Below, piece after piece: positions 59,567-64,000 of a DNA stretch of 64,000 nucleotides. A program made the position numbers and the translations under genes. The notes below the pieces were generated by a model. The model worked only from the letters and a program-made list of their open reading frames with translations, was not told where the DNA came from and did not search any database. The first letter of the stretch is position 1; every line of letters starts with the position of its first letter. Source of the stretch: Leucothrix arctica (GTDB lineage: Bacteria; Pseudomonadota; Gammaproteobacteria; Thiotrichales; Thiotrichaceae); contig NZ_QGKL01000042.1 in NCBI RefSeq assembly GCF_003172895.1, forward strand, positions 372,001 to 436,000, given 5' to 3'.

Positions 59567-60547
59567 TTATGCCTCGAAACATCTGACTTTGTGTTCATTT
59601 TCATGTGTAACAAAAGGAGGGACTTCTTCACGGCATTTAGCCGTTACTTTGTCACATCGCATCCAGAACGGGCATCCAGTAATCTTACTGTAAGGGTCCG
59701 GAATACTACCTTTAATGGGCTTCAATGACTCGTTAGTGTGAAGCGTCGGGATCGAAGCAATCAGTGCTTTTGTATAAGGGTGTTTCGGGCTCTTTAGTAT
59801 CTGATCGGTCGTACCTTGCTCAACAATGTAACCCAGATAAAAGACCGCAATCTCCTCAACCATATTTGCCACAACCGCAAGGTCATGTGTGATCAAAACC
59901 AACGCCATGTTTTGCTCACGCTGAATGTCTTTGATCAAACCAAGAATCTGCGCCTGAATCGTTACATCTAGTGCGGTGGTCGGCTCATCAGCAAACAGTA
60001 GGCGAGGGCTACAACTCACACCCATCGCAATCATTACACGCTGACGCATTCCACCAGAAAGCTGGAAAGTATAGTCATCATAAACATCACGAGCACGAGG
60101 AACACGTGCGCGTTCCAACATGTGAATGGCGTGTTCTTTAGCTTCGGTCTTATCCATATCAGTATGCTGCATGATTAATTCAATCATTTGGCTACCAACA
60201 GTATGGATAGGGCTTAAGCTACTCATCGGCTCTTGGAAGATCATGGAAATTTCTTTACCACGAATCTTGTTAATTTCCTTACCGTTTTGCTTCGCTTTAA
60301 GCACTTCGAACGGTTCACCGTTGTGATGATAAATAACATCACCATTTGTCACTTTAAACATTGGCTCAGGCAACAGACGAATAGGTAGGCGAGCGGTAAC
60401 GCTCTTACCACAACCTGACTCTCCAACAATCCCTAAACTCATCCCTTCATAGATGGTTAGATCTATGTCGTTCAATGTGTTTGTTTGTCCCTCAATCGTA
60501 TTAAATTGAGCGGCAATATTTCTATATTCGAGTAATTTTTTACGCAT
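59567..60547 (-). CDS. ABC transporter ATP-binding protein, OppD/DppD type
   Basis: A 326-aa ATPase: Walker [16 protein letters not shown], signature [14 protein letters not shown], Walker [14 protein letters not shown], and a C-terminal oligopeptide-type segment with [15 protein letters not shown]. It forms the heterodimer motor with the next gene. The start follows the permease stop by three bases. Confidence 0.93.
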
Positions 60548-60550
60548 GAT

Positions 60551-61714
60551 TTAAGCTCTATTCATGTATGGGTCAGCAGCGTCACGTAGACCGTCACCAA
60601 GGAAGTTGAAAAACAGTACAGTGGCAATCACGAAAAATGCTGGATAAAGAACCCAAGGGTAATTAGCAATAACGGTGATGCTCTGTGCTTCCTGAAGTAG
60701 TACACCCCAGCTCACAACTGGTGGGCGTAGTCCTATGCCTAAAAAGCTTAACGATGTCTCTGCAATAATCATGGCAGGGATACTTAGCGTTGCATGTGCG
60801 ATAACGAAGCTGGTTGAGCCAGGCAGCAAATGCTTACGGATAATGTAGAAGTTACCAGCGCCTGATAATAGTGCAGCTTCGGTATACTTCTCTTCCTTCA
60901 AGCGCATAACGATACCGCGCACCACTCGCGCTATACCTGTCCAACCAATCAGCGATAAGATCAAGGTAATCATGAAGTAAACAATTAATGGAGACCAATG
61001 TGGTGGCAATGAAGCGGCCAGTGCCATCCATAACGGAATAGATGGGAATGACATCAGTACTTCAATCAATCGTTGGATTAAAGTATCTGTTCGTCCACCA
61101 TAGAAGCCTGATATTCCCCCTAAAATTGCACCAAAGACCAGACTCAAAAATACACCAATCAAACCGATTGAAAGTGATATACGAGCACCGTGGACAACTT
61201 TACTAAAAATATCTCGGCCAAGTTTATCTGACCCCATCAAGAATAAAGCTGCACCATCGTCAACACCCATAAGGTGAAGGTCAGTTTCTACAAGCCCTAG
61301 TAACTTATAAGAGTAGCCGCGGTGTAAAAACTTAATCGGGTACATCTCATCGCCAGCAGTGTATTCATACTCCAGCGTTTCCATGTTTAACTTACGCGTA
61401 ATATTCTTAATATAAGGACGAGTGAAGCTTCCATCCGGATCTGTCCAGTGAATGTCTGTCGGTGCCACATATTTGTACTTAGCATTAAACGAATTGATAT
61501 CTTGTACGCTGACAAAGTTAGCGAAAAGCGCAACTAAGTAGAAAAAGATGATCATGATTCCACTAAACAGTGCAACCTTGTGCTGCTTAAATCTAAGCCA
61601 CATTAAACGTTTCTTAGAGGCGTAGAAAATATCATTTCCTTGATCTTGCGCTTCTAAGCTCTTTTCTAATTCTTCTTCCGAGCTACTTTGCCCAGGGGTA
61701 TATGTCGTGGTCAT
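60551..61714 (-). CDS. ABC transporter permease, OppC/DppC type
   Basis: A 387-aa membrane protein: one TM near 48-70, then a long extracytoplasmic insert (about 75-150), five more TMs, and the EAA-type loop around GAGNFYIIRKHLLPGS. The insert between TM1 and the core is larger than in OppC and recurs in carbohydrate-type members. It shares the operon with the OppB-like permease, nine bases upstream. Confidence 0.9.
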   Translation of the reverse strand: MTTTYTPGQSSSEEELEKSLEAQDQGNDIFYASKKRLMWLRFKQHKVALFSGIMIIFFYLVALFANFVSVQDINSFNAKYKYVAPTDIHWTDPDGSFTRPYIKNITRKLNMETLEYEYTAGDEMYPIKFLHRGYSYKLLGLVETDLHLMGVDDGAALFLMGSDKLGRDIFSKVVHGARISLSIGLIGVFLSLVFGAILGGISGFYGGRTDTLIQRLIEVLMSFPSIPLWMALAASLPPHWSPLIVYFMITLILSLIGWTGIARVVRGIVMRLKEEKYTEAALLSGAGNFYIIRKHLLPGSTSFVIAHATLSIPAMIIAETSLSFLGIGLRPPVVSWGVLLQEAQSITVIANYPWVLYPAFFVIATVLFFNFLGDGLRDAADPYMNRA

Positions 61715-61723
61715 AGTAGTTCC

Positions 61724-62713
61724 TTAAGAAAGACGAATGCGCGGATCAAGCAACGCAAGAATGATGTCTGATAAAAGCGTTCCTATGATGGTCAAAATAG
61801 CGAGCATCATTAGGAAAGTACCCGCCAAGTACATGTCTTGGCCTCGTAGTGCTTCTAATAAGTAAGGTCCTGTTGTCGGTAGACTCAAAACAATCGCTAC
61901 AATCGCACTACCAGAAACTAACTCAGGAAGCTGCCATCCAATCGTTGATGCAAGCGGTGTAATTGCGTGGCGAACAGGGTACTTAAGGATGACTTTGTAA
62001 GTCGGTAGACCTTTAGAGCGTGCAGTGTCAACGTATGGCTTGTGTAACTCATCCATCATAGTGGCACGCATAATACGAATCTGACTCGCAGTACCTGCAG
62101 TACCAACAACAATCACTGGTATCCAAATATGCTTAAGTGCGTCGTACAGCTTATCCATACTCCATGGCGCATTTATATACTCTGGTGAAAACAAACCGGA
62201 GAAGGGCGAGCCGAACCAGTTTAGCGAGAGGTACATTAGGAGTAGCGCTAACAGGAAGTTAGGAATAGCTAAACCAAGAAAGCCTAAAAAACTCACTACA
62301 TAATCAAATAGTGTGTATGGCTTCATCGCCGAAAGGATACCAGTGAAGAATGCTGTTGTTAGTGTGAAGATCAATGTAACAAATGTGATTAAGAAGGTTA
62401 AACCTAACTTACCCCAAATTAAGTCACTAACCGGCTTCTGATGCTGGAATGAATAACCGAAGTCACCACTTGGGAAGCCACTTATCCATTTGAAATAGTT
62501 AACGGCCATATTGTCACTGATATCAAGCTCTGCCTGAATACTTGCTCTTAGCGCGTCAACGTCAGTAATTGAACCATCAATGATTAGTCGTTCAGAGATA
62601 TAGGCATCAACAAAGTCACCAGGCGGAAGCTGGATAAGAATGAATGAGATAATGGATATTATTATGAGCGTCGGTATAGATATCAGACAGCGTCGTAAGA
62701 TGTAGAGCAGCAC
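61724..62713 (-). CDS. ABC transporter permease, OppB/DppB type
   Basis: A 329-aa membrane protein: MLLYILRRCLISIPTLIIIS start, IQLPPGDFVDAYISE, six TMs, and EAA loop around RSKGLPTYKVILKYPVRHAI. The start is GTG 62713 with AAGGAG six bases before it. First gene of the seven-gene cluster. The upstream region holds a 31-codon frame and an inverted repeat. Confidence 0.92.
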   Translation of the reverse strand: MLLYILRRCLISIPTLIIISIISFILIQLPPGDFVDAYISERLIIDGSITDVDALRASIQAELDISDNMAVNYFKWISGFPSGDFGYSFQHQKPVSDLIWGKLGLTFLITFVTLIFTLTTAFFTGILSAMKPYTLFDYVVSFLGFLGLAIPNFLLALLLMYLSLNWFGSPFSGLFSPEYINAPWSMDKLYDALKHIWIPVIVVGTAGTASQIRIMRATMMDELHKPYVDTARSKGLPTYKVILKYPVRHAITPLASTIGWQLPELVSGSAIVAIVLSLPTTGPYLLEALRGQDMYLAGTFLMMLAILTIIGTLLSDIILALLDPRIRLS

Positions 62714-63398: not shown

Positions 63399-63773
63399 AT
63401 GACCTGCTACTGCCAATCCAATAAGTCTTTTTTTGACTGCTGCGAGCCTTACCTCCGTGGAGAAGCAGCACCGACTGCCGAAGCCCTCATGCGCTCTCGC
63501 TACAGTGCTTATGTGCTAGACAAAGGAAATTACCTTTATAAAAGCTGGAGCCAAAGCACCCGTCCCAGTAAAAAGTCACTAAAGCAGGGCGAACCGATGC
63601 AGTGGCAATCATTAGAAATAATAAATACTGAAGCAGGTGGAGCCCTAGATACTGAAGGTGTTGTTGAATTTAAAGCGAGTTATTTAGTGGATGAAAAAAC
63701 TGAAACGCTTCATGAAGTTAGCCGTTTTATTAAAGAAAATAACCGTTGGGTTTATTTAGATGGTAATTATTAA
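63399..63773 (+). CDS. YchJ family protein
   Basis: A 124-aa protein with the SEC-C-like cysteine start (CYCQSNKSFFDCCEPYL) and EALMRSRYSAYVLDKGNYL, then a cystatin-like fold (VEFKASYL, FIKENNRWVYLDG). YchJ has no settled role; the Cys may bind zinc. It is slightly shorter than E. coli YchJ (152). Divergent from the uptake cluster. Confidence 0.9.
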   Translation: MTCYCQSNKSFFDCCEPYLRGEAAPTAEALMRSRYSAYVLDKGNYLYKSWSQSTRPSKKSLKQGEPMQWQSLEIINTEAGGALDTEGVVEFKASYLVDEKTETLHEVSRFIKENNRWVYLDGNY

Positions 63774-63783
63774 GTTTTGGGGG

Positions 63784-63813
63784 TTGACCAAAAACATCGC
63801 TTTGAATTATTGT
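63784..63813 (+). promoter_or_regulatory. Candidate promoter of the Val/Leu-rich leader
   Basis: -35 TTGACC (63784-63789) and -10 TTATTG (63107-offset position 63807-63812) at 17-base spacing, or TATTGT one base on; start about 63820, some 28 bases before the leader ATG. Confidence 0.45.
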
Positions 63814-63847
63814 AGCCAAACTGAATAATAAATCGCACTGACAACTA

Positions 63848-63952
63848 ATGACTAATCTTCGCCACACAAACCTAGTAACGAACTCAACACTGCTTGTCGC
63901 TGTGCTGATCGTCGTGGTGCCTGTCGTCGTAGATTACGAGAAAATGTCGTAG
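63848..63952 (+). CDS. Val/Leu-rich 34-aa leader peptide, probable ilv-type attenuator
   Basis: ATG 63848 to TAG 63950-63952. The product is MTNLRHTNLVTNS followed by TLLVAVLIVVVPVVVDYEKM and Ser. It has nine Val, five Leu and one Ile in 34 residues, with two Val triplets, as in IvbL and IlvL leader peptides. TCGTA (63927-63931) can pair with TACGA (63935-63939), which can instead pair with TCGTA at 63947-63951: two exclusive stems, the core of attenuation. The regulated gene lies past the window. Alternative: a small membrane peptide. The Shine-Dalgarno is weak. Confidence 0.6.
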   Translation: MTNLRHTNLVTNSTLLVAVLIVVVPVVVDYEKMS

Positions 63953-64000
63953 CGGTTTATTAGAGAAACAAATTCTAAAAACCCTTCGGCGAAAGCTAAA

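Follow-up and report, generated by a model that had tools for sequence, protein, structure and literature searches.

The 3' end of the analysed stretch of the Leucothrix arctica genome (contig NZ_QGKL01000042.1, positions 372,001–436,000; hereafter the window, 64,000 nucleotides) carries an element that, with a probability of roughly 93%, is a ribosome-mediated attenuator controlling transcription of the ilvBN operon (acetohydroxy acid synthase I, AHAS I). The gene order, the leader, the terminator, a conserved promoter motif, a covarying antiterminator and a conserved layout are all observed. The element, which the first-pass annotation had correctly spotted, is of a known control type, that of ivbL, and Rfam holds no family for it.

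The leader consists of a 34-codon open reading frame on the plus strand (63848–63952, ATG to TAG) with the translation MTNLRHTNLVTNSTLLVAVLIVVVPVVVDYEKMS. Nine of its codons specify valine (10, 17, 19, 22–24 and 26–28) and five specify leucine, which agrees with the first-pass count of nine and five in 34 codons and two valine triplets; codons 17–28 form the putative control region. No clear Shine-Dalgarno sequence precedes the ATG. The chance of at least nine valines in 33 codons is 9e-5 per ORF (binomial, window composition), and this is the sole frame with nine valines per 20 residues among the 1049 ORFs of 15–70 amino acids in the window. Given so many ORFs, valine richness by itself is just moderate evidence, and the status of the frame is settled by conservation in relatives. 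The commonness of valine codons, at ~1e-4 per ORF over this many frames, is what a chance ORF preceding an ordinary 5' UTR terminator would have in its favour. Such a coincidence is improbable in the extreme: the frame lies directly before ilvB, the antiterminator that follows it covaries, and orthologous valine-rich leaders stand at dozens of AHAS I loci, a conservation that refutes this explanation.

The sequence beyond the window was read from the same genome (4.75 Mb). The window had been said to end before the structural gene, and the ATG of ilvB indeed sits 41 nt beyond its edge, at 64041 in continued numbering and on the same strand as the leader. The 568-residue product, an acetolactate synthase large subunit, scores 875 bits against the NCBIfam model PRK08155 (cut-off 870) and 675 bits against TIGR00118 (cut-off 538), and falls under the cut-off of the AHAS 2 model PRK08978. 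It is followed by ilvN (104 amino acids), whose best match, PRK08178, reaches 106 bits (E 7e-31), under the cut-off of 128. By these matches the pair directly 3' of the leader is predicted to encode the large and small subunits of AHAS I. Between the leader and ilvB lies an intrinsic terminator on the plus strand (63977–64000, continuing past the window end to ~64011), composed of AAAAACCCTTCGGC-GAAA-GCTAAAGGGTTTTT and a U tract. In full, across the window end, it reads AAAAACCCTTCGGC-GAAA-GCTAAAGGGTTTTTTTTT, with a helix at 63977–64008 followed by the U tract. A simple pattern scan does not list it; it is evident from sequence and fold, and the helix is conserved in 10 relatives, where 95.7% of cells are paired. 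The first-pass reading of an ilvB/ilvG-type attenuator is thus supported by ilvB, ilvN and the terminator, and by the orthologous leader in E. coli, ivbL, annotated as the ilvBN operon leader peptide. The outcome that was to count against it, a following gene foreign to branched-chain amino acids and a missing terminator, did not occur.

A consensus scan places a promoter upstream of the leader (63784–63813, plus strand), with the -35 element TTGACC (63784–63789), an 18-nt spacer and the -10 element TATTGT (63808–63813). TTGACC is found equally distant from the leader in all three Leucothrix species, as well as in a Thiotrichaceae MAG and another gammaproteobacterial MAG. An alternative -10 element, AATAAT (63824–63829), was discarded in favour of the conserved TTGACC, which lies at the standard distance. 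Transcription would then start near 63820. Directly 5' of the leader, and ending 75 nt from it, is a gene for a 124-residue YchJ/SEC-C-like protein (63399–63773; PRK01617 family, under the cut-off), and Leucothrix pacifica has the same neighbour in this position (L033, 2360–2734). Divergent from the ychJ–ilvBN strand is a peptide/oligopeptide ABC transporter set (59567–62713, minus strand), by look an ATPase and two permeases.

The nearness of the ychJ-like gene, together with the hydrophobic second half of the leader peptide, could be taken to mean that the frame encodes a separate small expressed protein, such as a membrane peptide, and that the terminator belongs to ychJ. This is very unlikely, as ychJ and the leader are separated by a promoter and the peptide sequence is poorly conserved except for the valine run and the last few residues. 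What is kept before ilvB across distant lineages is instead the set of valine codons, the stop-proximal RNA and the terminator.

The attenuator reading is further supported by two short segments downstream of the leader stop. The first, region 2 (63954–63964, plus strand; GGUUUAUUAGA, GGUUU-A-UUAGA), begins 2 nt past the leader stop and forms the 5' arm of the antiterminator. The second, region 3 (63974–63983, plus strand; UCUAA-AAACC), forms the 3' arm and overlaps the terminator, whose 5' arm is made up by its 3' half, so that antiterminator and terminator compete. The stem core covaries across loci (UUAGA/UCUAA, CAGA/UCUG, UUGAU/AUCAA, UGGAA/UUCCA and CGAA/UUCG), and cognate arms outpair arms dealt among loci (permutation p 0.0005). 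With one locus per cluster (22 clusters) and adjustment for composition the median p is 0.0035, and the reversed control is null. A formal pair count from the MAFFT alignment was set aside because the alignment shifts the 5' arm by one column. In constrained folding, placing a ribosome on the stop codon blocks region 2 and abolishes the antiterminator. When the whole leader is folded at equilibrium, the terminator always comes out ahead; the model therefore has to invoke kinetics, as do those of all such attenuators. Covariation and constrained folding together indicate an antiterminator that is exclusive with the terminator and whose 5' arm a ribosome that has reached the leader stop would mask.

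In the proposed mechanism, transcription would begin near the predicted start, with ribosomes translating the leader in the wake of RNA polymerase. A shortage of Val-tRNA would stall the ribosome within codons 17–28 and leave region 2 free to pair with region 3, breaking up the terminator and allowing ilvBN to be transcribed. With ample Val-tRNA, the ribosome would reach the stop codon (63950–63952) and its footprint would hide region 2; region 3 would then join the terminator, and transcription would stop before ilvB. Ribosome stalling, the sensing of valine (with leucine at most secondary) and the regulatory outcome are all presumed from the arrangement of the locus.

The first-pass annotation had placed the switch elsewhere, in TCGTA/TACGA stems. 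These small hairpins are present at the end of the leader ORF (63927–63951, plus strand), where TCGTA (63927–63931), TACGA (63935–63939) and a second TCGTA (63947–63951) do allow mutually exclusive pairings. The complementarity is genuine, but it shows no conservation beyond Leucothrix and no overlap with the terminator, and the pairs that form the switch lie just 3' of the leader stop. Two sister Leucothrix carry the related CUACG/CGUAG, and the other loci do not have these stems.

Loci for AHAS I were collected from a scan of named genomes and from whole-genome searches. They occur in Leucothrix, a Thiotrichaceae MAG, Granulosicoccaceae, Zoogloeaceae/Rhodocyclaceae (Rhodocyclales), and Proteus and other Enterobacterales, as well as in Verrucomicrobiae DG1235 and several gammaproteobacteria; within the order Thiotrichales, 4 of 63 genomes have AHAS I. 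Nearly every AHAS I locus examined has a valine-rich ORF and a terminator within a few hundred bases 5' of ilvB, the weakest cases being L083 and L103. Across 37 leaders the mean content is 9.0 valines, 3.5 leucines and 1.0 isoleucine, with 8.5 of the valines within the final 20 residues. No valine-rich leader was found upstream of the AHAS III-type genes examined, including the copy in the same genome. This last gene (L068) has a tRNA-like sequence with a CAT anticodon region some 200–300 nt 5' of it, and no leader. In a tree of IlvB, interpreted with long rows left out, the Leucothrix sequence groups with those from Thiotrichaceae, Granulosicoccaceae and relatives, apart from the Enterobacterales clade.

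Several loci depart from the common layout. In Verrucomicrobiae DG1235 (L042) a valine leader (MHPSAIKPTSLINLVLVNVVVVVVVGWTASARG) and a terminator precede an AHAS I-like gene, and the antiterminator seems to take in the leader stop codon (GGUUG/CAACC); this attenuator was probably transferred. In one enterobacterial family (L119, L120 and L121) the leader stop has moved downstream (...GNAPRRD*), which would change how far from the antiterminator the ribosome finishes. Upstream of each of two further AHAS genes, both more distantly related (L086 and L087), a hydrophobic leader rich in valine, leucine and isoleucine is followed by a terminator and by another short ORF containing valine, possibly representing tandem leaders.

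The closest known counterpart is ivbL/ilvBN of E. coli. There, too, a valine-rich leader of ~32 codons (MTTSMLNAKLLPTAPSAAVVVVRVVVVVGNAP) and a U-tract terminator precede ilvB and ilvN, and region 2 begins at the leader stop or at most 2 nt from it and pairs with the 5' arm of the terminator. The identities of the pairs differ, the antiterminator core being UGGAA/UUCCA in E. coli and UUAGA/UCUAA in Leucothrix, as do most leader residues; the peptides end in ...YEAMP or ...DYEKMS as against ...GNAP in ivbL, and the E. coli IlvB falls in the separate Enterobacterales clade. The ilvGMEDA leader (ilvL) of Enterobacteria is another branched-chain leader-peptide attenuator, which precedes AHAS II and senses isoleucine, valine and leucine. 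It differs in that the Leucothrix enzyme scores above the cut-off of PRK08155 and below that for AHAS 2, and in that the leaders described here are nearly without isoleucine. Proteobacterial attenuators have reportedly been surveyed comparatively by Vitreschak et al. in 2004 (cited in PMC1262725). For Leucothrix, no earlier paper on an attenuator was found in the open-licence literature. Attenuation of E. coli ilvBN itself is textbook knowledge (listed in PMC1183508). In the actinobacteria, the ilvB leader or ilvB-II uORF (Corynebacterium) is likewise a short ORF with isoleucine, valine and leucine codons before ilvB (PMC1262725, PMC10272879), although in another phylum. Branched-chain codons there overlap candidate terminator hairpins, and in S. 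coelicolor codon substitution was without effect (PMC1262725). A search of the leader with Rfam 15 gave nothing above the gathering score, and at the E. coli locus the same search detected istR alone and missed the ilvB leader. A trpB motif match that scored 19 bits (gathering score 59, E 4.3) was dismissed as chance.

Region 2 has a second potential partner at the start of the leader. A segment of the 5' UTR, UAAUAAAUCGC (63826–63836, plus strand), is complementary over 11 bp to GCGGUUUAUUA at 63952–63962, forming a predicted duplex of -13.0 kcal/mol (shuffle p 0.004–0.008), and is a candidate protector arm. In both sister species the complementary segment, CUAAUGAAC(C), spans the start codon itself. 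In equilibrium folding with a single stalled ribosome and the 5' UTR otherwise free, region 2 prefers the leader start over the antiterminator, and in constrained folding the antiterminator is favoured only when the start region is occupied too. Across the three Leucothrix leaders, the start-region helix forms without ribosomes and is replaced by the antiterminator once a ribosome occupies the start. This shift is absent in the more distant L034 and partial in L040.

This suggested pairing may represent a protector (1:2) helix that would keep untranslated leaders off. The attenuator would then be gated at its start: region 2 would alternatively pair with the leader's own ribosome-binding region, and read-through would need both initiation and stalling, with the first ribosome stalled at the valine codons and a second, initiating one preventing the start region from closing. 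This would refine the attenuator reading without contradicting it, and is offered tentatively, at somewhat less than even odds. The median of 18 codons between leader start and valine run leaves space for a second ribosome. In 28-nt windows along the leader, the excess of cognate complementarity to region 2 is found only between about -30 and +18 relative to the start codon, and it recurs in 15 Enterobacterales loci (peak z -4.5), a set mostly separate from the first, with E. coli and Proteus common to both. The unadjusted cognate test was partly inflated by base composition, as its reversed-sequence control also gave z -2.15, and it was replaced by a composition-adjusted test. In that test the signal persists when the loci are reduced to 22 clusters (median z -2.8 to -2.9, p 0.0035–0.005 in the best windows) and the reversed control is null. 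However, the effect is moderate, with p ~0.03–0.05 once corrected for about nine windows, and there is no signal in L034, L076, L084 and L087. In addition, the arm in the window lies upstream of the start codon, not on it. The extension of this idea to ilvBN attenuators generally, including that of E. coli, in which region 2 would be sequestered by the leader ribosome-binding region rather than by the control codons and read-through would depend on a two-ribosome AND gate, is more doubtful still.

Should the start-region pairing prove genuine, the textbook mechanism would gain a check on translation initiation. The collected loci provide some 40 leaders for the comparative study of an element without an Rfam family. 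They indicate that the ilvBN operon is transferred or inherited together with its valine attenuator, as a single unit and well outside the enterobacteria, in patchily distributed lineages.
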